This document shows, in pieces, positions 9,948 through 60,507 of a stretch of DNA of 64,000 nt. This stretch comes from Thermomonas beijingensis (lineage in GTDB: Bacteria; Pseudomonadota; Gammaproteobacteria; Xanthomonadales; Xanthomonadaceae): positions 930,001-994,000 of the forward strand of contig NZ_JAIQDJ010000001.1 in assembly GCF_020034655.1 (NCBI RefSeq), in the 5' to 3' direction. Position 1 is the stretch's first letter; each line of letters begins with the position of its first letter. Under the pieces are notes generated by a model, which made no database searches, had not been told where the DNA came from, and saw nothing but the letters and a program-made list of their open reading frames with translations. Position numbers and translations under genes: made by a program.

Positions 9948-10799
9948 ATGTCACGTTTGCCCTCCCATGCCGTCCAAGGTGAACTTAAGCCGTTGGCCAA
10001 TGCGCACAACATCATTGCCGTGGGCTCAGGCAAAGGCGGCGTAGGTAAATCCACGACGGCAGTGAATTTGGCATTGGCACTGGCGGCGGAAGGCCTGAAG
10101 GTTGGTGTGCTGGATGCCGATGTGTATGGCCCCAGCATTCCCACCATGTTGGGTTTGTCTGGAAAGCCGGACAGTCCGGATGGCAAGAGCATCCTGCCGA
10201 TGCGGGCCTACGGGATCGAAGCGATGTCGATTGGCCTGCTGGTGGGCGACGATACGCCGATGATCTGGCGTGGGCCAATGGCTACCCAGGCGCTGACCCA
10301 ATTGCTGCGGGATACCTGCTGGAGCGATCTGGATGTGTTGATCGTGGATCTGCCACCCGGGACGGGCGATATTCAATTGACCATGGCGCAAAAGATCCCG
10401 GTGGCCGGTGCGGTGGTGGTGACCACACCGCAGGAAGTGGCCACCATGGATGCGCGCAAAGCATTGAAAATGTTTGAAAAAGTGGAAATTCCTGTGCTTG
10501 GTTTGGTGGAAAACATGGCGGTGCATGTGTGCAGTCAGTGCGGCCATGCCGAACACATCTTTGGCAGTGGCGGGGCACAGTGGATGTCGCAACAGTACGA
10601 CGTGCCGGTATTGGGCTCGCTGCCGCTGCAACGCTCGATTCGTGAGCAGGGCGATGCAGGTAAACCCATCGTGGCCGCGCAGCCGGACTCCGCCGCAGCG
10701 CAGGCCTATCGGATGACCGCACGTGCCTTGCTGGCGCGCTTGGCGCAACGGCCGAAGGTACGAACCGGGATTGCTGCGGCGCTGCTGGGGGCAGGCTGA
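9948..10799 (+). CDS. mrp: Mrp/NBP35-family iron-sulfur carrier ATPase
   Basis: A 283-residue P-loop ATPase with the deviant Walker A GSGKGGVGKST near residues 26-36, the switch region DADVYGPSIPTMLG, Walker B-like VDLPPGTGDIQLT, and the CxxC pair CSQCG near 195-198 that holds a bridging 4Fe-4S cluster in the dimer. Mrp/ApbC proteins carry or insert Fe-S clusters into apoproteins in the cytosol. It lacks the N-terminal DUF59 domain found in longer homologues. It is divergent from the TonB receptor across about 320 bases with no recognisable regulator site. Confidence 0.95.
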   Translation: MSRLPSHAVQGELKPLANAHNIIAVGSGKGGVGKSTTAVNLALALAAEGLKVGVLDADVYGPSIPTMLGLSGKPDSPDGKSILPMRAYGIEAMSIGLLVGDDTPMIWRGPMATQALTQLLRDTCWSDLDVLIVDLPPGTGDIQLTMAQKIPVAGAVVVTTPQEVATMDARKALKMFEKVEIPVLGLVENMAVHVCSQCGHAEHIFGSGGAQWMSQQYDVPVLGSLPLQRSIREQGDAGKPIVAAQPDSAAAQAYRMTARALLARLAQRPKVRTGIAAALLGAG

Positions 10800-10893
10800 A
10801 TAGCAGCGGTTTGGTGATGTTGCAGACTGCTATTTCCGTGTGCTATTTTCTTCTCATCTGCCGTCTGACGGCGTTGCGATGGTGGGGTTCAAG

Positions 10894-11346
10894 ATGCGTA
10901 AGTATCCTTTGGCAGCGACATTCCTTGCCGCAGTCTGTGCACTGCCCGCCTTTGCGCAATCCCAATCCAGCAATGATTGGGACAAAATCGTGCTGGAGCA
11001 GGCCAACGGCAGCGTGATGACCAGCACCGGCGGTGATTACCGTTCGGCGGCGATTGGTGACCAGCTGACGGTGGGCCAATACATGATGCTCTCTGGTGCG
11101 CAGCCGGGTGCCAAGCTGGTGTATTACAAGTTGGATGACAAAGGCCGCGTAATCCACAAGTGCGTGCGTGATTACGACCAGGCCAACACCTATGTGGTGG
11201 ACGCCAGTTGCAAAATCGCTGCCGGATGGGCCCATTCGGGTGGGATGAACGGTGCCAACGTCGGCATGATTGCCGGGGCTGTGCTTGTCGGGGCGGCTTT
11301 GCTTGGTTCGGAAAAAAATACGCCGATCAGTAGCGGGAGGCGTTGA
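10894..11346 (+). CDS. Small exported protein of unknown function
   Basis: The likely start is the ATG at 10894, giving 150 residues with a classical signal peptide (MRKYPLAATFLAAVCALPAFA, cleaved before QSQSS). Upstream in-frame starts at 10840 and 10879 would bury the signal peptide. The mature domain contains one pair of cysteines (HKCVRDYDQANTYVVDASCK) and a glycine/alanine-rich hydrophobic segment near the end (GMIAGAVLVGAALLG) that could be a membrane helix. No family is recognised. It sits 94 bases after mrp and before an O-antigen ligase-like gene; no functional link is visible. Confidence 0.7.
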   Translation: MRKYPLAATFLAAVCALPAFAQSQSSNDWDKIVLEQANGSVMTSTGGDYRSAAIGDQLTVGQYMMLSGAQPGAKLVYYKLDDKGRVIHKCVRDYDQANTYVVDASCKIAAGWAHSGGMNGANVGMIAGAVLVGAALLGSEKNTPISSGRR

Positions 11347-35887: not shown

Positions 35888-37162
<1,275 letters not shown>

Positions 37163-37168
<6 letters not shown>

Positions 37169-37230: not shown

Positions 37231-37860
37231 ATGGACGCCACACTCGCCCGCTTCGGAACGGTCCCCTTCAGTCACGGTGCCCTGCTGCCGCTGCTGAAGG
37301 ACTACCGGCGCCCGAACGACAAGATCGCCGAATGGCTGCGGCAGGGCGTGCTGTTGCCGCTCAAGCGTGGCCACTACGTGCTGGGCGATGCCGGGCGCGC
37401 GCCCAGCCTGCCACTGGTGGCCAACCACCTGTACGGCCCCTCCTGCGTCTCGCTGGAGTATGCGCTGGCCTGGCACGGGCTGATCCCCGAGCGCGTGCAC
37501 GAAATCACCTCCGTCTGCACCGGCCGCGGCCGCGTCATCGACAACGTATTGGGGCGCTTCTCCTACACCCGGCTGCCCGCCGACGTGTACCCCTGCGGCA
37601 TCACCCAGGCCAGCGCCTCGGCGCAGGAAACCTTCCTGATCGCCTCACCGGCCAAGGCGCTGTGCGACAAGGTCCTGCTGACGCCCGGGCTGCGCGCCAG
37701 CAGCCGCGCAGCCATGCAACGCTTCCTGTTCGAAGACCTGCGGCTGGACGCCGCCGCCCTGGCCAGCCTGGACCTCGACGTCATCCGCACCTATGCCGCC
37801 TGCGGCCGCAAGACCGCGCAACTGCGCGTGCTGCTGCAGTGCGTGGAGGCGGCACATTGA
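37231..37860 (+). CDS. AbiEi-family antitoxin / transcriptional repressor
   Basis: A 209-residue protein of the type IV AbiE system. The N-terminal part is a winged-helix (KIAEWLRQGVLLPLKRGHYV near residues 31-50), typical of AbiEi autorepressors. The middle carries SLEYALAWHGLIPERVHEIT and the conserved SPAKALCDKVLL. AbiEi counteracts the nucleotidyltransferase toxin indirectly, without stable binding to it, and represses the promoter. The toxin gene overlaps its stop codon (TTGA). The pair sits between tviB and galE in the EPS operon with its own operator. Confidence 0.88.
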   Translation: MDATLARFGTVPFSHGALLPLLKDYRRPNDKIAEWLRQGVLLPLKRGHYVLGDAGRAPSLPLVANHLYGPSCVSLEYALAWHGLIPERVHEITSVCTGRGRVIDNVLGRFSYTRLPADVYPCGITQASASAQETFLIASPAKALCDKVLLTPGLRASSRAAMQRFLFEDLRLDAAALASLDLDVIRTYAACGRKTAQLRVLLQCVEAAH

Positions 37861-38678
37861 ACGTGGTCGAGCAGATGCTGGCGCGCTATCCCGCGCAAGA
37901 GCGCGAACACGCCCTGCGCGAAGTGATGCAGGAAATCGCGCTGGCCGGCCTGCAACGTGGCGGCTTCTTTGATAAAGCCGCGTTCTATGGCGGCACCTGC
38001 CTGCGCATCGTCCATGGTCTACCGCGGTTTTCGGAGGACTTGGACTTCTCCCTGCTCACCCCGGACCACGCCTTCACCCTGGCGCCGTACTTCGACGCCA
38101 TGCGCAGCGAGTTCGACGCCTTCGGATTCGAGGTGACCATCACCGCCCACGCGAAATCGGTGGAATCGGCGGTGGTCTCCGCCTTCGTGAAACAGGGCAC
38201 CTCGATCTACGACGTGCAGGTGCGCGGCCAACGCACGCTCAAGATCAAGTTCGAAGTGGACACCCAGCCGCCCCCGGGTTTCGCCACCGAGGAACGCCTG
38301 CTGCTCCAGCCATACTCGTTTTATGCCAAGTGCTACGCCCTGCCGGACCTGCATGCCGGCAAGCTGCACGCCCTGCTGTTCCGCAAGTGGAAGAACCGGG
38401 TCAAGGGCCGCGACTGGTTCGATTTCGAATGGTATATACGCAACGCAGTGCCGCTGCATCTGGCGCACCTGGACCAACGCGCACGTCAAAGCGGCGATTG
38501 GGATGGGTCTGCGATGCAACAGACAGACCTGCAGCACCTACTGTTGCAACGCATCGAGTCTCTTGATTTCGAGCAAGCCCGTGCCGACGTGCGCCCCTTC
38601 CTGCGCGATGCCCATGCGCTGGATATTTGGTCGCCGCGCTATTTCCGCGACCTCGCTGGCAAGCTCATATACGCATGA
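37857..38678 (+). CDS. AbiEii/AbiGii-type nucleotidyltransferase toxin
   Basis: Start is a TTG at 37857 overlapping the antitoxin stop, with GGAGG seven bases upstream; 273 residues. The DNA polymerase beta-like nucleotidyltransferase core shows FYGGTCLRIVHGLPRFSEDLD near residue 43 (written here in part), with the metal-binding Asp pair in SEDLDFSLL, and later KLHALLFRKWKNRVKGRDWFD near residue 180. The family transfers nucleotides to tRNA or similar RNA and stops growth when not neutralised. The catalytic residues are intact, so the toxin is probably functional. Confidence 0.88.
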   Translation: MNVVEQMLARYPAQEREHALREVMQEIALAGLQRGGFFDKAAFYGGTCLRIVHGLPRFSEDLDFSLLTPDHAFTLAPYFDAMRSEFDAFGFEVTITAHAKSVESAVVSAFVKQGTSIYDVQVRGQRTLKIKFEVDTQPPPGFATEERLLLQPYSFYAKCYALPDLHAGKLHALLFRKWKNRVKGRDWFDFEWYIRNAVPLHLAHLDQRARQSGDWDGSAMQQTDLQHLLLQRIESLDFEQARADVRPFLRDAHALDIWSPRYFRDLAGKLIYA

Positions 38679-38761: not shown

Positions 38762-39769
38762 ATGAACCTTCTCGTCACCGGCGGTGCCGGCTACATCGGC
38801 AGCCACACCTGCGTCTTGCTGCTTGAGGCAGGCCACACCGTCACCGTCATCGACAACCTGTGCAACAGCTCCGCCACCGCGCTGGAACGCGTGCAGGAAC
38901 TGGCCGGCAAACCCCTGTGCTTTGTCGAAGGCGACATCCGCAATCCGGATGATCTGGCCCGCGCCTTCGAAGGCGGTATCGACGCTGTGATCCACTTCGC
39001 CGCATTGAAAGCCGTCGGCGAAAGCTGTGAACAGCCACTGCGCTACTTCGACAACAACATCGGCGGCACTATCGCCCTGATGCAGGCCATGCAGGATCAC
39101 GGCGTGCACCACCTGGTGTTCTCGTCCTCCGCCACCGTGTACGGCCAGCCTGATCAGGTACCGGTCACCGAAGACGCTCCGCTGCGCGTCACCAACCCCT
39201 ACGGTCGCAGCAAACTGGTAATGGAAGACCTGATCCGCGACTGGTGCGCGGCGCGGCCCGAGGCCAGCGCGGTGCTGCTGCGCTACTTCAACCCGGTGGG
39301 TGCCCACCCCAGCGGCCGCATCGGCGAAGACCCGCGTGGCGAGCCCAACAACCTGATGCCGTATATCGCCCAGGTCGCTATCGGCCGGCGCGAACGTCTG
39401 CAGGTCTTCGGCAGCGATTACCCCACGCCGGATGGTACCGGTGTTCGGGATTACCTGCATGTGATGGATCTGGCGGATGCCCACGTGAAAGCGTTAGTTC
39501 GCGCCGCGCATGAGCCGGGCAGTCGCGTCTTCAATCTAGGCACTGGACGCGGTCACAGTGTTCTGGAGCTTGTCCGCGCATTCGAGCAGGCCAGTGGTCG
39601 CGAGGTGCCCTATACGATTACCGCTCGTCGTCCCGGCGATGTCGCTGAATTATGGGCCGACCCGTCCCGTGCCAAGGAGTTGCTGGGCTGGCACCCCCAG
39701 TTCAGTCTGGCAGACATGTGCGCCGATACATGGCGCTGGCAGTCGCTCAACCCGCAAGGCTACGCGTGA
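38762..39769 (+). CDS. galE: UDP-glucose 4-epimerase
   Basis: A 335-residue extended short-chain dehydrogenase/reductase. The NAD loop LVTGGAGYIGSHTCVLLLEA is at residues 4-23, the catalytic serine region is HLVFSSSATVYGQPDQVPVT near 118, and the YxxxK pair is in TNPYGRSKLVMEDLI near 147. The segment LRYFNPVGAHPSGRIGEDPR is diagnostic for GalE. It interconverts UDP-glucose and UDP-galactose, supplying galactose residues for the polymer. Its TGA overlaps a GTG start of the next epimerase. Confidence 0.95.
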   Translation: MNLLVTGGAGYIGSHTCVLLLEAGHTVTVIDNLCNSSATALERVQELAGKPLCFVEGDIRNPDDLARAFEGGIDAVIHFAALKAVGESCEQPLRYFDNNIGGTIALMQAMQDHGVHHLVFSSSATVYGQPDQVPVTEDAPLRVTNPYGRSKLVMEDLIRDWCAARPEASAVLLRYFNPVGAHPSGRIGEDPRGEPNNLMPYIAQVAIGRRERLQVFGSDYPTPDGTGVRDYLHVMDLADAHVKALVRAAHEPGSRVFNLGTGRGHSVLELVRAFEQASGREVPYTITARRPGDVAELWADPSRAKELLGWHPQFSLADMCADTWRWQSLNPQGYA

Positions 39770-40779
39770 AAATCCTCGTCACTGGCACCGCCGGCTTCAT
39801 CGGTTCCCATCTCGCCATGCGCCTGCTTGAGCGCGGTGATCACGTCATCGGCATCGACAACCTGTCCGACTACTACGACGTAAACCTGAAGAAGGCGCGT
39901 CTGGCGCGCTTCGCCGATCACCCCAACTACACCTACCTCCATGCGGACCTGGCCGACCGCACGGGCATCGAAACTGCATTCGCCACCCACAAACCGCAGC
40001 GTGTGGTGAACCTTGCCGCGCAGAACCCGCATGTATATGTGGACACCAATGTGGTCGGTTTCCTACACATTCTGGAAGGCTGCCCGCACCACGGCGTGGA
40101 GCACTTGGTGTTCGCATCGACCAGCTCGGTGTATGGCGCGAATACGACGATGCCGTTTTCCGAGCACCAGCCCACCGAGCACCCGCTGACCCTGTACGCG
40201 GCCAGCAAGAAAGCCAATGAAATGATGGCGCACAGCTATGCGCACCTCTACGGTATTCCGTGCACTGGTCTGCGCTTTTTCACTGTGTATGGCCCATGGG
40301 GTAGGCCTGACATGGCGTTATTCCTGTTCACCAAGGCCATCCTGGCCGCCGAGCCCATCAAGGTCTTCAACCGCGGCAAGCACAAACGCAGCTTTACTTA
40401 CGTCGATGACATCGTGGAAGGCGTGATTCGCACGCTGGACAAAGTGCCGGGCAAGGATGCGCGCTGGGACGGCCATGCACCCGATCCGGGTACCAGCGGC
40501 ATTGCCCCATATCGCCTCTACAACATCGGCAACGAACAGCCGGTTGAACCACTGCGCTATATCGAAGTGCTGGAGCACTGTCTCGGCAAGAAGGCAATCA
40601 TGGAGATGTTGCCCTTACATGCCGGCGATGTACCGGATACCGAAGCGGATGTGTCGGCGTTAATCGAGGATACTGGCTATCGGCCGGTGGTGTCAGTGGA
40701 GGAAGGGGGGGGGGATTTCGTGGATTGGTTTCGAGATTATGTACGGCAACGAAGCCTGATGGCGCGGTGCGTGCAATGA
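39766..40779 (+). CDS. CapI-like nucleotide-sugar 4-epimerase, internally deleted copy
   Basis: GTG 39766 gives 337 residues. It is closely similar over its whole length to the gene at 59485 and belongs to the UDP-glucuronate 4-epimerase (CapI) group: [20 protein letters not shown] at residues 4-23, STSSVYGAN and the LTLYAASKKANEMMAHSYAH motif with the catalytic Tyr and Lys. The conserved AGVRY segment following NLAAQ is missing: AAQ joins directly to NPHVYV, an in-frame loss of eight residues (24 bases, junction near 40023) relative to the other copy. That loop lies at the cofactor and substrate site, so activity may be lost or altered. Near the 3' end is a 10-G run. Confidence 0.85.
   Translation: MKILVTGTAGFIGSHLAMRLLERGDHVIGIDNLSDYYDVNLKKARLARFADHPNYTYLHADLADRTGIETAFATHKPQRVVNLAAQNPHVYVDTNVVGFLHILEGCPHHGVEHLVFASTSSVYGANTTMPFSEHQPTEHPLTLYAASKKANEMMAHSYAHLYGIPCTGLRFFTVYGPWGRPDMALFLFTKAILAAEPIKVFNRGKHKRSFTYVDDIVEGVIRTLDKVPGKDARWDGHAPDPGTSGIAPYRLYNIGNEQPVEPLRYIEVLEHCLGKKAIMEMLPLHAGDVPDTEADVSALIEDTGYRPVVSVEEGGGDFVDWFRDYVRQRSLMARCVQ
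40705..40714. repeat. Ten-G homopolymer tract
   Basis: A run of 10 guanines inside the 3' part of the epimerase gene encodes Gly-Gly-Gly and the first base of Asp. The duplicate gene at 59485 has no such run in the corresponding place. Such tracts can slip and cause phase variation, and they also cause sequencing errors. Confidence 0.9.
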
Positions 40780-42725
40780 CTACTCTCGCCTATCGCAAAG
40801 ATATCGATGGTCTGCGCGCGATCGCAGTGCTTGCAGTTGTGCTGTATCACTACGGAATTGGCCCGCTGCATGGCGGGTTTGTCGGCGTCGATATCTTCTT
40901 TGTCATTTCCGGTTACTTGATTACCGGTATCATCAACAAGGAGATCGAGCAAGGCTCTTTTACCTTCTCTGGCTTTTACGAACGCCGCATACGAAGAATT
41001 TTTCCCGCATTGTTCGCGATGTTATTTGCGACGCTTGCGGTCGGCGCCTGGCTGTTGTTGCCCAGTGATCTGGTACGTTTGGGTAATTCGACGGTGGCAA
41101 CACTCCTGTTTGGTTCGAACATCCTGTTCCGGCGGCAAAGCGGGTACTTCGATACCAGTTCCGAATACAACCCGTTGCTGCACACTTGGTCGCTGGCAGT
41201 GGAGGAGCAGTTCTACATCGGACTGCCCATCCTGCTGCTCCTGCTGCATCGCTTCATGAGGGGAGAGGGGCTGAAGCTGGCGCTGCTAATCTGCGCTGTG
41301 GTGTCCTTCGTACTGTGTTTTTGGGTGCAATTGCTGCGGCCGACGGCGACTTTCTTCCTGGCGCCCTTCCGTGCCTGGGAATTGCTACTGGGTAGTTTGC
41401 TGGCGGTGGGTGCGCTGCCCCCGCTGAGGCATGCAGTCGCGCGTACGTCAGTATCGTGGCTCGCGTTGGCGGCATTGCTGTGGTCGCTGTGGTGGATCAA
41501 GACCGGCGCGGCGTTTCCGGGCTGGCAGGCGGCGATTCCTGTCCTGGCAACTGCTGGACTCCTGCACGCAGGCGCACATGGGGGCTCGCCGGTGCAGCGC
41601 CTGTTGTCGGTGCGGCCCGTCGTATTTATTGGACTAATCTCTTATTCGCTGTATCTCTGGCACTGGCCGTTGCTGGTTTTTGTGCGTTACAGAAATGCCA
41701 TGCAACCGCTCGAACCAGCCATAAAATGGCCGCTGTTTGCGCTGGCGCTTGCACTGGCCGCGACCAGTTACCGCTGGGTGGAAACACCGTTCCGGCGACG
41801 GAAGCAAGCTACTGGACACGATCCGCGGCGCACACTATTTGCGAGTGCAGCCGTGGCCGGTCTGGTGATCGCCTCAGCGGCCGCTACGACTCGCATCGAT
41901 GCGGGTTGGCAGGCGCGGTTCACTCCGGAGGTGGTTGCACTGGATGCAGCGCGGCATCCGCTCATCCCGTTTCAGGAATGCGATGGGCACGAGCCGGACA
42001 TCCATGGCACCACGTGCCGGCTTGGCGTGGGTAGCGGCGCACCAACGGTCTTGCTATGGGGTGATAGCCATGCACTGGCCTGGGCACCTGCGCTAGATGC
42101 GGTGTTAAAACGCGAAGGAAAAGCGGGGCTGCTTGCGCCTAATTCCGCTTGTCCGCCACTGTTGGGCGTTGGCAATCCTGTTGATCCTGCCTGTCACGAC
42201 GATAACAGCAAGATCATGCGCATCATTCATGCGCACCATTTCGAGATGATCGTGCTCCATGCGTCCTGGGCCAGCTACTCTGCGCCCAATGGGAAATACT
42301 CTCTCTTCGATGACGAGGGGCACACCGGTAATGACGCAGTATTCCCTCAAGCGCTGCGACGTACGCTCGATGCCCTTGTGCCACTAACGGGAAGGATCCT
42401 CCTTATTGGCCCAACGCCGCGAGCGCCCGGAGATATCCCGTTCTTACTTGCGATAGCTAGAAGATTTGATCGACCTGCTCCACCCGAGCTTTCAAAAAAT
42501 TGGATGCACCTTAAGACGGCATGGTATTGGAAGGCAGCAAATCGCTTTCGTGGGAGCAAAAATATTGAGCTGATCAACCCTGAGCCTTGGTTTTGTGATG
42601 ACATCAAATGCCGTTATTTAGATAGCAGTGGGGAGTTGCTTTACCGCGATGATGGTCATCTGAGCCTTGCAGGAGCCTCTCTCATCGCTGATAAGATGGA
42701 ACGCGATGGTGCAACAGGTAAGTGA
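40776..42725 (+). CDS. Membrane O-acyltransferase with SGNH domain (OafA-type)
   Basis: ATG 40776 overlaps the epimerase stop; 649 residues. Residues 1-345 are an acyltransferase-3 domain with about 10 membrane helices, starting YRKDIDGLRAIAVLAVVLYH and including GGFVGVDIFFVISGYLITGI. Residues about 420-640 form an SGNH-hydrolase-like periplasmic domain with block I LLWGDSHALAW near 431 and DDGHLSLAG near the end. This fused arrangement is that of enzymes that O-acetylate O-antigen or EPS sugars. The C-terminal third is lower in GC than the first part, where the variable cassette begins. Confidence 0.92.
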   Translation: MTTLAYRKDIDGLRAIAVLAVVLYHYGIGPLHGGFVGVDIFFVISGYLITGIINKEIEQGSFTFSGFYERRIRRIFPALFAMLFATLAVGAWLLLPSDLVRLGNSTVATLLFGSNILFRRQSGYFDTSSEYNPLLHTWSLAVEEQFYIGLPILLLLLHRFMRGEGLKLALLICAVVSFVLCFWVQLLRPTATFFLAPFRAWELLLGSLLAVGALPPLRHAVARTSVSWLALAALLWSLWWIKTGAAFPGWQAAIPVLATAGLLHAGAHGGSPVQRLLSVRPVVFIGLISYSLYLWHWPLLVFVRYRNAMQPLEPAIKWPLFALALALAATSYRWVETPFRRRKQATGHDPRRTLFASAAVAGLVIASAAATTRIDAGWQARFTPEVVALDAARHPLIPFQECDGHEPDIHGTTCRLGVGSGAPTVLLWGDSHALAWAPALDAVLKREGKAGLLAPNSACPPLLGVGNPVDPACHDDNSKIMRIIHAHHFEMIVLHASWASYSAPNGKYSLFDDEGHTGNDAVFPQALRRTLDALVPLTGRILLIGPTPRAPGDIPFLLAIARRFDRPAPPELSKNWMHLKTAWYWKAANRFRGSKNIELINPEPWFCDDIKCRYLDSSGELLYRDDGHLSLAGASLIADKMERDGATGK

Positions 42726-42736
42726 TGATCTGAGAC

Positions 42737-43018
42737 ATGAAGAGCGCCACGTCATCAAAATTTACAGGCCTCGAGTCATGGAAGGTAACTATCTTTGGCG
42801 ATCGATGCGCAGGACTTCAATTTATGCGGACATGCATGAAAAGCGATGTTGACAGTTCATGGGGTATCTATGAAATAGAAAGCCAACCGCGGTGCAGCCT
42901 GCATCGGAATCTAAACCTGCGACGTTCCTCCGTAAGCTTGTCACGCGTTCTCAGTGGTGCGGCCGGGGTGGTATCTAAAAGTATTTGCACTATGGCCACC
43001 GTTGGGATTGGGCGGTGA
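42737..43018 (+). CDS. Small ORF between acyltransferase and flippase (doubtful)
   Basis: An open frame of 93 residues starting MKSATSSKFTGLESWKVTIF. No family is recognised and the ribosome-binding site is weak. The one favourable sign is that its TGA (43016-43018) overlaps a GTG start of the flippase, the same coupling style as elsewhere in the operon. The alternative is that this 290-base stretch is a remnant of a deleted gene. Confidence 0.25.
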   Translation: MKSATSSKFTGLESWKVTIFGDRCAGLQFMRTCMKSDVDSSWGIYEIESQPRCSLHRNLNLRRSSVSLSRVLSGAAGVVSKSICTMATVGIGR

Positions 43019-44271
43019 TAGTCGTTACAAGAAAGGCACGGAATGTAATGCAATCCGTCGGGATGCTTGTAGGCGGGACGGGCGCCGCACAGGCCATCAC
43101 ACTGCTAGTTCTCCCCGTTATTTCTAGAATTTATACGCCTTCAGAATATGGTGAATTCAGCACGCTTCTGGTGTCGATCGGTCTGGCAACGATCATTGCA
43201 ACCCTGCAGATGCAGCATGCTGTAGTTTTACCGAAATCTGATTCGCAGGCGCTGCATATATTCTCTGCTGGCCTAGTGATGGTGGTGGTGACTGCTTTGT
43301 TGATGTTTCCAATCACGCTGGTCGTAATGTCGGTTATCGGAAGGCAGAGCAGCGCCATCGTCGTTGCGGTACTAGTTGCCGGTATCACATTCGCAATAAG
43401 CCTCGGCCAGCTACTTCAGGGGCTGGGTATTCGTTACGGCATTTTCTCCAGCATTGCGCAGGCATCCGTTCTCCGATCAGGGGTGATTGCAGCATTGCAG
43501 TGCTATATGGGCTGGCTAGGCTATGGTGTCAATGGTCTGTTATTAGCATGTTTCGTGGGCGAAATATCCCTGGCCTTTTTTCTATGGCGCAGTTTGCCAT
43601 TACCGCGTAAGCACATTCGTACTATTTTTCGTTCGCGGACAAGGTTGATTGTTGTCGCGCGACAGTACCGGGATTTCGGCCAATTTGGCGTTCCTCAGGA
43701 ACTTCTTAGCTCCCTCTCTCAGGGGCTGCCTGTGTTGATTCTGGGCGCCGGCTACGGACAAGCTGTGGCTGGCGCCTATGCGATGGTAATGCGTGTTTTG
43801 GGTGCCCCCGTACAGTTGATTGGAAACGCAGTACGACAAGTGATCTACAGAGAGTTCGCAGGTAAGTCCAGTGGCGCTGAAAAAAAGCGAGTATTCGTCA
43901 TGGCGACGCTTTGCCTCGCTATCCCCGCATTGACAGCTGCTGCTCTCTTATCTCCGTTTTTACCGAGCCTCATTCCTGCTGCGCTAGGTGATGATTGGAT
44001 TGTTGCGGGGCAATACTCAGTCCCACTTGTATTTCTAATAGCGCTTTCAATGTCAAATCCGCCGGCAGGTGCAATTTTTCGGGTTGCTCGAAGGCAAAAG
44101 CTCAATTTGCTATATAATTTAATTTTAATGGTCTCCCGATTGGCCGCTCTTTATTTGGCAGCTATATATTTGTCGAGCGTGGCAGCAGTATCTATATACG
44201 CCGCCGTCAGCGTCGCGATGAACGTTGTTTATATTTTTCTTGGATATCAAATAGTCAAGTCATTGAATTGA
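43015..44271 (+). CDS. wzx: Polysaccharide flippase (Wzx-like)
   Basis: Taking GTG 43015 as start gives 418 residues; ATG 43048 (408 residues) is also possible. About 12 membrane helices, with the family N-terminus LVGGTGAAQAITLLVLPVIS followed by RIYTPSEYGEFSTLLV. It belongs to the MOP/polysaccharide-biosynthesis exporter group and should flip undecaprenyl-linked repeat units to the periplasm. The base composition here is clearly more AT-rich than in the flanking nuo and FucNAc genes, as is usual for the exchangeable heart of such loci. Confidence 0.9.
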   Translation: MIVVTRKARNVMQSVGMLVGGTGAAQAITLLVLPVISRIYTPSEYGEFSTLLVSIGLATIIATLQMQHAVVLPKSDSQALHIFSAGLVMVVVTALLMFPITLVVMSVIGRQSSAIVVAVLVAGITFAISLGQLLQGLGIRYGIFSSIAQASVLRSGVIAALQCYMGWLGYGVNGLLLACFVGEISLAFFLWRSLPLPRKHIRTIFRSRTRLIVVARQYRDFGQFGVPQELLSSLSQGLPVLILGAGYGQAVAGAYAMVMRVLGAPVQLIGNAVRQVIYREFAGKSSGAEKKRVFVMATLCLAIPALTAAALLSPFLPSLIPAALGDDWIVAGQYSVPLVFLIALSMSNPPAGAIFRVARRQKLNLLYNLILMVSRLAALYLAAIYLSSVAAVSIYAAVSVAMNVVYIFLGYQIVKSLN

Positions 44272-44352
44272 CAAAGTGGCCAATATCGAGATTTTGTATT
44301 CATTTGTACCTAGGCTGACGCAATATCGGATGGATGGCAGCGTTACCGAAAC

Positions 44353-44361
44353 TGGTATAAT
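44353..44361 (+). promoter_or_regulatory. Extended -10 promoter element upstream of the polymerase gene
   Basis: TGGTATAAT is a perfect extended -10 (TGnTATAAT). No good -35 is present at 17 bases. Transcription would start around 44368, after the ribosome-binding site of the small ORF at 44375 but before the polymerase gene. Consensus evidence only. Confidence 0.4.
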
Positions 44362-44374
44362 TCGGAGTATTTGA

Positions 44375-44539
44375 ATGAGTAAACGATCCATAGTTGAAAC
44401 TTACTCCTCTACTCCATTCAAGGTCGAGAAGTTCTACGGGCCACCATGGCACTCAACGCCAGAATTCACTTGGCTGATGGGACAGGTGCCAGCACGGGAT
44501 ATTATCCCTATCAATCTTATGGTGAGAATTGGTCTATGA
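44375..44539 (+). CDS. 54-residue leader-like ORF before the polymerase gene
   Basis: ATG 44375 has a good GGAG seven bases upstream and encodes 54 residues beginning MSKRSIVETYSSTPFKVEKF. The stop (44537-44539) overlaps the ATG at 44536 of the polymerase gene in an ATGA, as at most junctions of this operon. No family is recognised. It may be a small protein, a translational coupler, or the end of a vanished gene. Confidence 0.4.
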   Translation: MSKRSIVETYSSTPFKVEKFYGPPWHSTPEFTWLMGQVPARDIIPINLMVRIGL

Positions 44540-45789
44540 TGGGCGGGGTTATCAGATCGTCCTGGTTATACACTTTCGGTGTCTTTGGGTTCGTATTCTT
44601 TGGGTTAGCGGTGTCCGGAATACCGGGCTGGTCGCGGCTAGTTTTTGCATTTTCTGGATTGTTGGCATTGCTGACGTTCACCGATCTGACGTTGAATAAG
44701 GTGCGGCTGGGACGTTGGCTGCTCTTCCCATCAGCTTTCCTTCTGATCGCTATAGTGGGGGGCGTTGCGCGTTATCCGGCCTCACAAGAAGCGGTGGTGC
44801 GCTTGCTCGGTACCTGGAGCGGTGTGCTGCTTGTCGTCGACGCAGTACGGCGAGGCGTCCCGATAAAAATCATCATAAATGCGATGTTCTGGGCGTCGTT
44901 TGCAAATGCTGCTGCTGTTGCCATGGGGTTTGATGCCGGCCTAGCCTATGGAGATAATACAAATCAGGATGCTTATTATGTGCGCATAATAGAGCGTCAA
45001 TCAGGGCTGGTGGGTAACGCAAATTTGATGGCGGTTCAGGCATTTTTGCCGCTATTCGCTACCATTATTTGGCGAAGCGAAATTTCCAGATTAATGATTG
45101 CAGCTGGGGGGCTATGCGCGATATATGCATTTTTCATAACGGGATCGCGTACTTCCATCGTCCTTGTCTTTTTTTTAGTATCCGCTTTATGCTTTCGATA
45201 TTCTCACGGTCACCGATGGGTGCTATTAGGTGCAGTGGCAGTGCTTTTCTTCGGTCTACTTTCTTTGGTGTGGGAAATGATGCCTTCAACTGAATTGGGG
45301 GTGATGGCTAGGCAAGTCGTTGCGATTGATAGATTGTTTGAAGGGATTGAGGGCACGGATAGTTCACTGATAGTGCGTATGAATATGATTGAAGTTGCAA
45401 AAAGAATGTTTTTTGAAAATCCTGTAATTGGTCATGGGTTGGGTTATTTTGCGGATGCGGGTGGGTTTGGTGTCTACGCCCACAACAACTATTTAGAGCT
45501 TCTTGTTTCGGGTGGGGCCCTATTGTTCGCAATTTATTATTTTATGTACTTTTTTGTCCTGATTCGCTGCATGCTAGGAGAAATTAAAGGAAATGGTGTG
45601 CGGGCCGCCTGTGTAACCGTCTTTGCCTTACTAGCGGTTGATTATACGTTGGTGAGCTACGACCAAAAATCTATAGCACTCATGATAGCATTGCTATTCA
45701 TGACGGCTTCAAACCGAAGCATTGGCACGGCGGCGTTTCCAGAAGAAAGAAAGTATGTTAGTCATGAAATAAACGAGGGGCTAACGTGA
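44536..45789 (+). CDS. wzy: O-antigen/EPS polymerase (Wzy-like)
   Basis: With the ATG at 44536 the protein has 417 residues; an in-frame ATG at 44446 would add 30 polar residues that overlap a separate small ORF. It has about 11 membrane helices and a periplasmic loop with NPVIGHGLGYFADAGGFGVY followed by AHNNYLELLVSGG near residue 327, the ligase/polymerase pattern. It would polymerise the flipped repeat units. The DNA is AT-rich. Its TGA overlaps the GTG of the next gene. Confidence 0.85.
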   Translation: MMGGVIRSSWLYTFGVFGFVFFGLAVSGIPGWSRLVFAFSGLLALLTFTDLTLNKVRLGRWLLFPSAFLLIAIVGGVARYPASQEAVVRLLGTWSGVLLVVDAVRRGVPIKIIINAMFWASFANAAAVAMGFDAGLAYGDNTNQDAYYVRIIERQSGLVGNANLMAVQAFLPLFATIIWRSEISRLMIAAGGLCAIYAFFITGSRTSIVLVFFLVSALCFRYSHGHRWVLLGAVAVLFFGLLSLVWEMMPSTELGVMARQVVAIDRLFEGIEGTDSSLIVRMNMIEVAKRMFFENPVIGHGLGYFADAGGFGVYAHNNYLELLVSGGALLFAIYYFMYFFVLIRCMLGEIKGNGVRAACVTVFALLAVDYTLVSYDQKSIALMIALLFMTASNRSIGTAAFPEERKYVSHEINEGLT

Positions 45790-46907
45790 AGTTTCTGCTG
45801 ATAATTGATAGCCTTGGATCGGGTGGTGCGCAGCGACAGATGGTCACTTTGGCTGCTGGACTCGCCGCGCGCGGTCATCACGTCGAGATGTTCACGTACT
45901 ACGATGACGGTCATTTCGCGCATTTTGCACAACGTGCAGGGGTAGTTCTGCATGTCCAAGCCAAGGCATCGCGCTTCTCTCTCCAGCCAGTCGTCGCGTT
46001 GCGGAATCTTTTTAAGCAAGGACGATTCGATTGTGCGCTCGCCTTCTTGGAGACGCCCAGCGTATATGCGGAGCTTGCGCGTCTAGGGCGTTCAGGGCCA
46101 CCTCTCGTCGTAAGTGAACGTTTCTGTTATTCACCCGCTACCCTGGGTTGGCGGGGCCGTCTGCAGCAGGAACTGCATCGCCTGGCAGACTGGATCACGG
46201 TCAATTCGTTCCACCAGAAAGAAGTCATGGTGAAGATGTTCCCATGGATGGCGTCAAGGATCAGCGTTATCTGGAATGGGGTGGATACAGACCACTTCGC
46301 AACTCAGCCGCTGCCAGTTCCGGTTGAGGGTAAGTTGCGGGTACAGGTATTGGCCTCTTTGGCGAGCAAGAAGAATCCACTTGGCCTTGCTAAGGCTGTA
46401 GGGCTCTGTCGCGACGAGTACGGACTGTTGGTGGAAGTAAACTGGGCGGGGGTTCAGACTGTCAGTGCTGAAGGCGGAAAGGCTCGACAAGATGCGGATG
46501 CATTCTTGAAGGCACACAACCTGGCTGATCAGTGGTGCTGGACGGGTGAGGTTCGGGATGTCCGTCCGCTATTGGCGGATTGTGATGTGGCGGTACACCC
46601 ATCATTCGCGGAAGGGTTGCCGAATGCCCTCTGTGAAGCATTGAGCTGCGGGCGACCAGTGCTGGCGAGCAATATCGGCGATCACGCTCTGCTGGTGGAC
46701 GGCGGTGCTAACGGCGCGTTGTTCGATCCAAGCAGTCCAAGCGCCATTGCGGCGGCGCTGTATGCTCACTCGATGCTGAGCGAAGACGAGCGGATACGCA
46801 AGGCGGCGTCGGCGCGCCGATACGCGGAGATGCAGCTTTCGAGGTTGCGGTATGTAGATGCCTACGAAAGCAAGTTCGCTGCATTGCTGAAGGGATCAAA
46901 GAAATGA
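45786..46907 (+). CDS. Glycosyltransferase family 4
   Basis: GTG start overlapping the polymerase stop, 373 residues. It has a GT-B fold with N-terminal IDSLGSGGAQRQMVTLAAGL (residues 7-26), characteristic of GT4, and the C-terminal nucleotide-sugar motif HPSFAEGLPNALCEALSCGR near 276-295 holding the EX7E glutamates. It transfers a sugar from a nucleotide donor to the lipid-linked repeat unit at the cytoplasmic face. Donor and linkage cannot be read from the sequence. Confidence 0.92.
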   Translation: MKFLLIIDSLGSGGAQRQMVTLAAGLAARGHHVEMFTYYDDGHFAHFAQRAGVVLHVQAKASRFSLQPVVALRNLFKQGRFDCALAFLETPSVYAELARLGRSGPPLVVSERFCYSPATLGWRGRLQQELHRLADWITVNSFHQKEVMVKMFPWMASRISVIWNGVDTDHFATQPLPVPVEGKLRVQVLASLASKKNPLGLAKAVGLCRDEYGLLVEVNWAGVQTVSAEGGKARQDADAFLKAHNLADQWCWTGEVRDVRPLLADCDVAVHPSFAEGLPNALCEALSCGRPVLASNIGDHALLVDGGANGALFDPSSPSAIAAALYAHSMLSEDERIRKAASARRYAEMQLSRLRYVDAYESKFAALLKGSKK

Positions 46908-57660: not shown

Positions 57661-58090
57661 GTGGGAGCTTTGCTCTTGTGGGAGCTTTGCTTTTGTGGGA
57701 GCGGCCCCTGGCCGCGACTTGAGCTGCCCTGTCGCGCGCAGGGCGCGCTCCTACAACAGCCAAAGCCATTGTGGGAGCTTTGCTCTTGTGGGAGCGGCCC
57801 CTGGCCGCGACTTGGGGTGCCTGTCGCGCGCAGGGCGCGCTCCTACACCATCCAAAGCTGCAGCTACTTGTGGGAGCTTTGCCCTGGTGGGAGCTTTGCC
57901 CTTGTGGGAGCGGCCCCTGGCCGCGACATGGGGTGCCCTGTCGCGCGCAGGGCGCGCTCCTACAACATCCAAAGCCAATGCCAAAGCCATTGTGGGAGCT
58001 TTGCTCTTGTGGGAGCGGCCCCTGGCCGCGACTTGAGCTGCCCTGTCGCGCGCAGGGCGCGCTCCCACACCATCCAAAGCTGCAGCTACT
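57661..58090 (+). repeat. REP/BIME array, orientation 1 (about four units)
   Basis: Four paired-palindrome units begin near 57695, 57788, 57904 and 58009. Each has an A hairpin (GCGGCC-CCT-GGCCGC, flanked by GTGGGA and GAC) and, about 12 bases on, an inverted B hairpin (GTC-GCGCGC-AGG-GCGCGC-TCCTAC). Extra half-repeats of GTGGGAGCTTTG precede them. A and B are homologous in opposite orientation, the organisation of bacterial interspersed mosaic elements. No RAYT transposase gene is in the window. Confidence 0.92.
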
Positions 58091-58116
58091 TGTGGGGTTG
58101 GCAGTCCCCTTCAAGA

Positions 58117-58142
58117 CGATCGGGCCCTTGCGGGCCCGATCG
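58117..58142 (-). terminator. Hairpin terminator after the 158-residue orphan gene
   Basis: CGATCGGGCCC (58117-58127) and GGGCCCGATCG (58132-58142) form a perfect 11-bp stem with a 4-base loop, about 50 bases after the stop of the minus-strand gene. Confidence 0.75.
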
Positions 58143-58192
58143 GTTTAGCGCCCCGGACAGCCTGGTCTGGGCCGGGGTATTGCTTCAGGCAG

Positions 58193-58669
58193 TCAAGCTG
58201 CCCCTTGCTCGTTGCTGTCGTCGTTGGCCGCCTTGGCCGGACGCTTCTTGAAACGTACTCCCAACGCCTGCCGCAGCGCGGTCAGGCCCTGGCGGTCACC
58301 GAACTCGCCCATGGCGTTGTAGCCTTGGCGTGCGGTGCTGGCCACGTCGGCCCCCAGCGCCACCTCGGTGTCCCGCATCCGTTCCGCAAGCCGCAGGATC
58401 TGCCTGGTGCGCGGACGCAGCTCGTCGATGGTGCGCAGGGCGGCCAGCGCCCCGTTCAGGTCCATCGCCGGCGAGGCCAACTGCCGGTTCTTGTCAAGTA
58501 CGGTCAGGGCTTCGCGACAGAACTTCTCTGTCTTGTTGCCCATCTTGTACAAGCGGCGGCGTTGCTTGCTATCCAGTGCAATCAGCTTGACGAAACGCTG
58601 CTCGAGCTGGGCGAGGGCCGCGTCAATTGCGGCCAGGTCTTCTTCGGTAAAGCGGGTTGAAATGCTCAT
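58193..58669 (-). CDS. Orphan 158-residue helical protein
   Basis: Encodes a mostly alpha-helical, charged protein (MSISTRFTEEDLAAIDAALA at the start; a basic tail RFKKRPAKAANDDSNE). No signal peptide, membrane helix or known catalytic motif is visible and no family is recognised. It is bounded by its own terminator and promoter region and enclosed between two REP arrays of opposite orientation. Its GC content and codon use look chromosomal, and the opposite-strand frame of similar length is a shadow. Confidence 0.75.
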   Translation of the reverse strand: MSISTRFTEEDLAAIDAALAQLEQRFVKLIALDSKQRRRLYKMGNKTEKFCREALTVLDKNRQLASPAMDLNGALAALRTIDELRPRTRQILRLAERMRDTEVALGADVASTARQGYNAMGEFGDRQGLTALRQALGVRFKKRPAKAANDDSNEQGAA

Positions 58670-59030
58670 GGGTTCTCCATATTGAGCGGTGATGTCCTGA
58701 CAGGAATTGTTAGGACATGCCCAGCGCCGACATGTCTGAAGTGTTAAGCGTTGGACAAGGTCAGTTTGACGGGCATCAATTCAACTGTGAACACCGTTGC
58801 AAATTCGTAAATACTTGGTATCTTGTTCGGCCAGTCTATTACTTCTGGCATAGGTCGACTAAGTCTTGACATGTTATGTTTAGAAGTAATGTTAACGGCG
58901 TGCTTGCCATGGTTTAGGCAGGTAGCATGAGGCGTAGGACTTCGCGCAGTTTGTGCGTTGCATCATCCGGTGGGTGTGTCCCGGACGTTAAAAATGCGCG
59001 AAACGGGTCACAATAAAGACTCAAGGGCTG
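58670..59030. other. AT-rich intergenic region upstream of the orphan gene
   Basis: About 360 bases with no gene. It holds an imperfect dyad TGTCCT(g)ACA-ggaat-TGT(t)AGGACA at 58693-58717, 24 bases before the orphan gene start, the palindrome GACATGTC (58729-58736), and on the plus strand a TTGACA at 58866. These suggest a regulated promoter for the orphan gene. Confidence 0.5.
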
Positions 59031-59462
59031 CAGCTTTGGATGTTGCAGGAGCGCGCCCTGCGCGCGACAGGCCCCCATGTCGCGGTATCCCTTGTGGGAG
59101 CGCGCCCTGCGCGCGACAGGGCACCCCAAGTCGCGGCCAGGGGCCGCTCCCACAAAAGCAAAGCTCCCACAAGGGCTTTGGCTTTGGATGTTGCAGGAGC
59201 GCGCCCTGCGCGCGACAGGGCATCCCAAGTCGCGGTATCCCTTGTGGGAGCGCGCCCTGCGCGCGACAGGCACCCCAAGTCGCGGCCAGGGGCCGCTCCC
59301 ACAAAAGCAAAGCTCCCACAAGGGCTTTGGCTTTGGATGTTGCAGGAGCGCGCCCTGCGCGCGACAGGCATCCCATGTCGCGGCCAGGGGCCGCTCCCAC
59401 AAAAGCAAAGCTCCCACAAGGGCTTTGGCTTTGGATGTTGTGGGAGCGCGCCCTGCGCGCGA
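59027..59462 (-). repeat. REP/BIME array, orientation 2 (mirror of the first)
   Basis: The same repeat family as at 57.7-58.1 kb, but reversed: B' hairpins (GGAGCGCGCCCTGCGCGCGAC in part, near 59047, 59095, 59194, 59248, 59344 and 59440) alternate with A' hairpins (GTCGCGGCCAGGGGCCGCTC in part, near 59130, 59279 and 59377). The joining sequence AAGGGCTTTGGCTTTGGATG recurs. The array ends 22 bases before the second epimerase gene. Confidence 0.92.
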
Positions 59463-59484: not shown

Positions 59485-60507
59485 ATGAATACGAGCAAGA
59501 AGGTTCTGGTCACCGGCACCGCCGGTTTCATCGGTTCGCATGTGGCGCAGGTGTTGCTGGCGCGCGGTGATGAAGTCATCGGCTTTGACAGTCTCAATGA
59601 CTATTACGATGTCAGCCTGAAGCAGGCGCGCTTGGCGCGCTTCATGCAGCACCCTAACTACACCCATGTGCAGGCCGATCTGGCTGACCGTGCAGCAGTG
59701 GAGGCGGTGTTCGCCACCCACAAGCCGCAGCGGGTGGTGAATCTTGCGGCGCAGGCGGGGGTGCGTTACGCGGCGGAGAACCCGCATGTGTACGTGGCCA
59801 GCAACGTCACCGGCTTCCTGCACATCCTCGAGGGCTGCCGCTACCACGGCGTGGAGCATCTGGTGTATGCCTCCACCAGTTCGGTGTACGGGGCGAACCG
59901 GGCGATGCCGTTCTCCGAGCACTCGCCGGCCGAACATCCGCTGACCCTGTACGCGGCCACCAAGAAGGCCAACGAGCAGATGGCGCACAGCTACGCGCAC
60001 CTGTACGGCATCCCGTGCACGGGGCTGCGCTTCTTCACCGTGTATGGCCCGTGGGGGCGCCCGGACATGGCGCTGTTCCTGTTCACCAAGGCCATCCTGG
60101 ACGGCCAGCCGATCCGGGTGTTCAACCACGGCCACCACAAGCGCAGCTTCACCTATGTCGATGACATCGTGGAGGGCATCGTGCGTGCGCTGGACCGGGT
60201 GCCGGGCAAGGATCCGGACTGGTCGGGCGAACGCCCGGACCCGGCCACCAGCGGGGTGGCACCGTACCGCCTCTACAACATCGGCAATGAACAGCCGGTG
60301 GAGCTGCTGCGCTACATCGAGGTGCTGGAGGAGTGCCTGGGCCGCAAGGCTGTGATGGAAATGCTCCCGCTGCAGCCTGGCGACGTGCCGGATACCGAGG
60401 CCGATGTCTCCGACCTGATCGCCAATGTGGGGTATCGCCCGGTGGTGCCGGTGGAGCAGGGCGTGGCCAATTTCGTGGCCTGGTATCGGGATTATCATCA
60501 AGTTTGA
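59485..60507 (+). CDS. CapI-like UDP-hexuronate 4-epimerase, complete copy
   Basis: A 340-residue extended SDR epimerase closely related to the gene at 39766 but with the full [19 protein letters not shown] segment near residue 88. The NAD loop is [20 protein letters not shown] and the Tyr/Lys pair is in [20 protein letters not shown]. It belongs to the UDP-glucuronate 4-epimerase group. It is preceded by the second REP array and followed, with a TGATG overlap, by the nucleotidyltransferase frame. It could replace the function of the damaged copy in the EPS operon. Confidence 0.92.

Follow-up and report, generated by a model that had tools for sequence, protein, structure and literature searches.

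The solved structure closest to the two epimerase homologues described here is that of the NAD-dependent epimerase of Klebsiella pneumoniae (PDB 5u4q), which is 56% and 58% identical to them in structural alignments. A second known relative is UGAepi, the UDP-glucuronic acid 4-epimerase of Bacillus cereus (PDB 6zl6, 6zlk and 6zll). Its loop Pro85-Trp91 shifts upon substrate binding and R88, within that loop, is the alpha-phosphate binder (PMC11519531, section 6). Single changes in the loop lower kcat 21- to 34-fold, from 0.56 per s in the wild type to 0.0262 per s in R88A and 0.0165 per s in P85G (PMC11519531). According to PMC7984243, a slow conformational step precedes hydride transfer. We describe here a gene of Thermomonas beijingensis whose product, as read from the genome assembly, is a homologue of these enzymes that is without the entire loop. 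When the literature was searched for epimerases of this kind with in-frame deletions, nothing relevant stood among the matches listed.

The window, by which we mean the whole stretch of 64,000 nucleotides that was analysed, contains two such homologues: a short gene lacking eight codons and, 20 kb from it, an intact long gene (Table 1). The two are mutually closest relatives within their own genome, a 2.79-Mb draft. Both genes belong to one cluster for O-antigen or capsule, of which the short gene occupies the left end. At its start the short gene shares 4 bases with the galE stop (GTGA), and at its stop another 4 with the acyltransferase ATG (ATGA). A longer open reading frame, from 39652, extends into galE in a different frame, and the GTG at 39766 was taken as the start instead. 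An RfaH-like gene, scoring 135 bits and so below the model cut-off of 144.5, lies immediately upstream of tviB. A second NDP-sugar dehydrogenase is encoded on contig C7 and might be a source of UDP-GlcA. The G+C content is 52% and 47% in two 2-kb segments over the flippase and polymerase genes (42001-46000 of the window); low G+C is common in exchanged O-antigen cores. Just upstream of the long gene there are GC-rich repeat arrays with periods of 17, 51, 98, 105 and 149 bp (57661-59462).

Table 1. Positions in the window of the two epimerase homologues, their sequence features and the genes around the short one.
Feature	Position	Strand	Remarks
tviB-like UDP-GlcNAc 6-dehydrogenase gene	35888..37168	+	NF011729, 629.6 bits (cut-off 592)
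AbiEi/AbiEii pair	37231..38678	+	between tviB and galE
galE (UDP-glucose 4-epimerase)	38762..39769	+	TIGR01179, 446.6 bits (cut-off 262.3)
Short gene	39766..40779	+	UDP-uronate 4-epimerase homologue without eight codons; GTG start; 337 aa
Sole remaining unit of presumed 9-bp repeat, short gene	40015..40023	+	GCCGCGCAG; junction directly after
Run of ten G, short gene	40705..40714	+	GVAN of relatives reads GGGD; frame kept
Acyltransferase gene (AT3 + SGNH)	40776..42725	+	Pfam
Long gene	59485..60507	+	intact homologue; usual genus lineage; 340 aa
First 9-bp repeat unit, long gene	59746..59754	+	GCGGCGCAG (AAQ)
24 bases of long gene without counterpart in short gene	59755..59778	+	AGVRYAAE
Second 9-bp repeat unit, long gene	59770-59778	+	GCGGCGGAG; last nine of the 24 bases

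The original prediction held that the gene at 39766 had suffered an in-frame deletion of 24 bases and that its frame was otherwise open, and the assembly bears out both statements. When the two genes are compared, the eight missing codons leave a junction between 40023 and 40024, where LAAQ is followed directly by NPHVY; elsewhere the short gene has no internal stop and no frameshift, and its overlaps with both neighbours are kept. Slippage had been proposed on the strength of the near-repeats GCGCAG/GCGGAG. Slippage, or some other deletion at short repeats, does fit the sequence well as a cause of the loss, but the repeat is of 9 bp and not of six. In the long gene its units, GCGGCGCAG and GCGGCGGAG, stand 24 bp apart and are identical at 8 of 9 positions, while in a related gene, L009, both units are identical and have the sequence, GCCGCGCAG, that is left once in the short gene. 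Agreement between the two 9-mers ranges from 5 to 9 of 9 positions in the 26 loop-bearing genes of the same clade, being perfect in L009, and from 1 to 9 positions over all 103 loop-bearing genes. The ten-G run further along the short gene is the longest homopolymer of the window and may be either prone to slippage or an artefact of sequencing. A hidden frameshift at this tract was considered and rejected, the homologous frame being retained on both sides.

Homologues were gathered from 25 genomes of the genus and from the best 80 of at least 590 matching stretches in 84,980 species genomes. The alignment has 104 rows, made up of the short gene, the long gene, 22 genus loci and 80 others. Five entries (L001, L002, L004, L008 and L033) were dropped before the tree was built as repeats of the window's own genes, more distant SDR matches were left outside the alignment, and an internal stop in L076 was read as X. 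Two genus genomes are outside the 104 rows: G007, with a contig-end fragment, and G020, with no close homologue. The motif AG[VI]R[YH] occupies the site in 103 of the 104 rows (99 AGVRY and 4 AGVRH), with the short gene as the sole exception, and the loop is present in the G007 fragment too. Relatives sharing the short form were sought in the 102 other loci (the 22 of the genus and the best 80 of at least 590 elsewhere) and were not found. A degenerate pattern for the junction, of a kind that misses short forms with other flanking codons, was also run over 395 genomes of the family and 369 of the class, 4 of which are shared, giving 760 distinct genomes. It matched 7 genomes in each search and 13 distinct places in total, of which 12 proved to be non-homologous when the fetched loci were compared by tblastn; the window's own junction was the only one in an epimerase homologue. 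The 12 other matches are plausibly due to chance, because a reversed control pattern also matched, at two places in the 369 class genomes and at none among the 395 of the family. Within the reach of these searches, the loss looks private to the short gene, since almost every aligned row keeps the loop and the pattern gave no homologous match elsewhere.

Residues 91-98 of the long protein align with P85-K93 of UGAepi (6zl6, residues counted by hand), A91, R94 and E98 being opposite P85, R88 and K93. The original prediction had put the eight lost residues, AGVRYAAE, in a cofactor/substrate loop, and this alignment identifies them with the mobile substrate loop. The long protein shares the loop with UGAepi, its Arg94 corresponding to R88. 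The short protein resembles it in its SDR fold (TMq 0.80-0.81), NAD motif and Tyr/Lys pair, at about 30% identity, but differs from it in being without the whole of P85-W91; it differs likewise from the Klebsiella protein in the absence of the AGVRY..E region. By analogy with the B. cereus enzyme, loss of the whole loop should be worse than R88A or P85G alone, and the short gene would have lost an element that its activity needs, as an inactivated gene copy is expected to have done. The loss of activity may fall short of total, since the R88A and P85G variants of UGAepi retain a few percent.

The short protein keeps the NAD and catalytic motifs of the extended SDR class of UDP-uronate 4-epimerases. 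The residues T6, G7, G10, F11, I12 and G13 of its Rossmann NAD motif (TGxxGFIG) are invariant in a 54-row alignment that includes it, as are Y144 and K148 of the catalytic YxxxK and the serines S118 and S120, and it matches PF01370 with 171.3 bits against a cut-off of 20.9. None of the NCBIfam matches listed for the two copies (25 of 32 and 25 of 49) reached its curated cut-off. Structure prediction, which had been suggested as a check, gave confident folds for both copies. The mean AlphaFold pLDDT is 87.7 for the short protein and 85.4 for the long one, falling to 73 in the block around the junction (residues 81-90) and to 71 in the block of the long protein that contains most of the loop (residues 91-100). 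In the long model a short helix, residues 93-98, stands between a strand and a long helix; in the short model this helix is gone and a short turn joins the strand to the long helix. Both models find their best structural match in 5u4q (TMq 0.89 and 0.86). There is no sign of structural collapse in the AlphaFold model of the short protein, which on this prediction should be able to fold and perhaps also to bind NAD; such models speak to fold and not to activity.

Selection was assessed by a codon test on 16 of the 27 rows of the clade, chosen for spread, with gapped columns and the first codon removed (321 sites), and the fits are conditional on one assumed tree. A dN/dS comparison was among the checks suggested with the original prediction. 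Omega on the branch of the short gene, 0.101 (likelihood interval about 0.06-0.18), is the highest among the 16 terminal branches, but its rise over the background of 0.067 is not significant (2dlnL 2.1). It is unremarkable because rates differ among terminal branches, several of the others lying below the background and L013 most clearly so (2dlnL 15.2). An omega of 1 is rejected for the branch of the short gene under a two-rate codon model (2dlnL 34.6), so selection across the branch as a whole is purifying, and strong relaxed selection was not found by the codon models of these 16 rows. The neutral share of the branch has a best value of about 2% and an upper bound of about 9%, with zero within range. 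Since the branch is purifying overall, inactivation, if real, must be recent, occupying the last 9% or so at most. A leave-one-out comparison over the 104 rows was confined to columns with conservation of 98% or more among the other rows. At 103 such columns the short gene shows four deleted positions and, in addition, three substitutions (R>P, L>P and Q>H), against a median of 0 substitutions and no more than 1 in any other row of its 27-row clade; it is not the most deviant of all 104 rows, L113 having 5 substitutions and four distant rows having 3. These changes, together with the omega value and the G run, can be read as mild signs of relaxed constraint.

The long gene had been described as a complete duplicate of the short one, and this part of the original prediction does not hold. 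It would be in keeping with a recent duplication, in which the piece was lost after copying, that the two genes are closer to each other than to anything else in their genome. Their DNA is only 75.5% identical over 991 columns, however, and the short gene groups in the 104-row tree with a gene from an Arenimonas MAG, L038 (99/91, in a bootstrap that had not settled), and does so again in a 30-row tree (97/83). Forcing the short and long genes into one clade costs 39.7 log units in the 30-row tree and is rejected under the model used (p-AU 0.0009), which makes recent duplication hardly credible. The wider group around the short gene in the 104-row tree takes in L009 and L011, from the genus genomes G022 and G024, and L040, from a Rhodanobacter MAG. 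In L038 and L040 the epimerase gene directly follows tviB, one gene intervenes in G022 and two in G024, and in the window the AbiE pair and galE stand between them. The long gene is of the type usual in the genus, 92% identical to the gene of G018, where the counterpart also adjoins glycosylphosphotransferase and 4,6-dehydratase genes; the G006 epimerase is identical to that of Thermomonas hydrothermalis. On the grounds of tree grouping and gene neighbourhood, then, the short gene can be seen as a divergent homologue that lies at the opposite end of the cluster from the long gene; either an old duplication or transfer could have put it there.

There are two further ways of accounting for the missing loop. 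The shortened protein might work, with an altered choice of substrate or as a non-catalytic partner of the long protein or GalE, and its open frame, its intact catalytic motif, the clean turn in a confidently predicted fold and a branch-wide omega far below 1 all agree with that. The low omega may nevertheless reflect nothing but the period that preceded the loss, and the loop and its Arg are kept in every aligned row but one, no relative with the short form having emerged from the 760-genome pattern search; changing single loop residues of the homologue is already costly to kcat (PMC11519531). We regard a working variant as unlikely. The altered specificity that the original prediction offered as its alternative has no positive support, the deletion having removed a loop and an Arg common to nearly all relatives, and a stable loop-less homologue with a new duty, such as tuning UDP-sugar supply through mixed dimers with the long protein or GalE, seems to us highly improbable. 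It is also quite improbable that the strain still has the 24 bases and that the assembly has dropped them. In favour of this are the draft state of the genome, in 60 contigs, and the ten-G run in the same gene; yet the loss is clean, in frame and at a 9-bp repeat, and 103 homologous rows are without one like it. Similar repeats are found with no loss in 18 other clade genes that agree at 7-8 of 9 positions (the long gene, with 8, among them) and in one that agrees at 9 of 9. We would not expect assembly collapse at a 9-bp repeat with units 24 bp apart, as this lies within the span of an ordinary read.

Other members of the genus provide a parallel, in that two of the 25 genomes, G011 and G018, also have a surplus, degenerating copy close to their intact gene. 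In G011 the second copy (C3:34777-35406, or L123:15778-16407) is truncated, with an internal deletion and a broken frame; it is about 94% identical in DNA to the intact copy (L123:7711-8724), and the starts of the two are about 8 kb apart. In G018 there is a mere remnant of 29 residues (C11:73528-73614), whereas the short gene extends over its full length and has a single in-frame loss. Spare copies of the epimerase gene have thus decayed more than once in the genus. In the few loci viewed, the polysaccharide clusters of the genus carry varied toxin-antitoxin or defence-like genes after tviB: the AbiEi/AbiEii pair in the window, a PDC-S27-like ATPase in G022 with, past the epimerase gene, an HTH gene and a weak AbiEii-like nucleotidyltransferase (L118:7402-8874, 10091-11274), and a pair in G024 that by eye resembles Phd/PIN (L119:8237-8865). 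In G010 and G006 tviB and galE are nearly adjacent. Judged from these loci only, the stretch after tviB may be an insertion hot spot.

We think it probable, on all of these observations, that the short gene is a spare UDP-uronate 4-epimerase gene that has undergone an in-frame loss and now most likely gives little or no activity, with the long gene as the probable supplier. It would formerly have encoded a normal NAD-dependent enzyme of the UDP-GlcA/UDP-GalA type, and 24 bases were probably lost by slippage across two near-identical 9-bp repeats. The product has neither the Arg for the alpha-phosphate nor the mobile loop with which such an enzyme closes on its nucleotide sugar, and it is most likely for this reason inactive or almost inactive. 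The long gene, intact and of another lineage, probably makes the same product, and the loss may have been tolerated because it can do so. The proposal that the gene is inactive and a distant copy supplies the activity survives in this altered form: the loop is gone and an intact homologue is present, but that homologue is not a duplicate and the inactivity is a deduction. The overlaps with both neighbours may help to keep the frame of the short gene open. We saw, by eye, no strong ribosome site ahead of the acyltransferase ATG, and given the overlap there, frameshifts in the short gene may be counter-selected for the sake of the acyltransferase.

The short gene is likely, then, to be a spare epimerase gene inactivated in frame, which is nothing out of the ordinary. 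It matches epimerase families well despite its missing substrate loop, and this is a warning for annotation. If the substrates of the short and long proteins differed, the loss would predict a changed surface polysaccharide. The short gene also points to a small built-in risk of deletion in its branch of the family, where the 26 loop-bearing clade genes carry, at a spacing of 24 bp, two repeat units with 5-9 of 9 positions in common.
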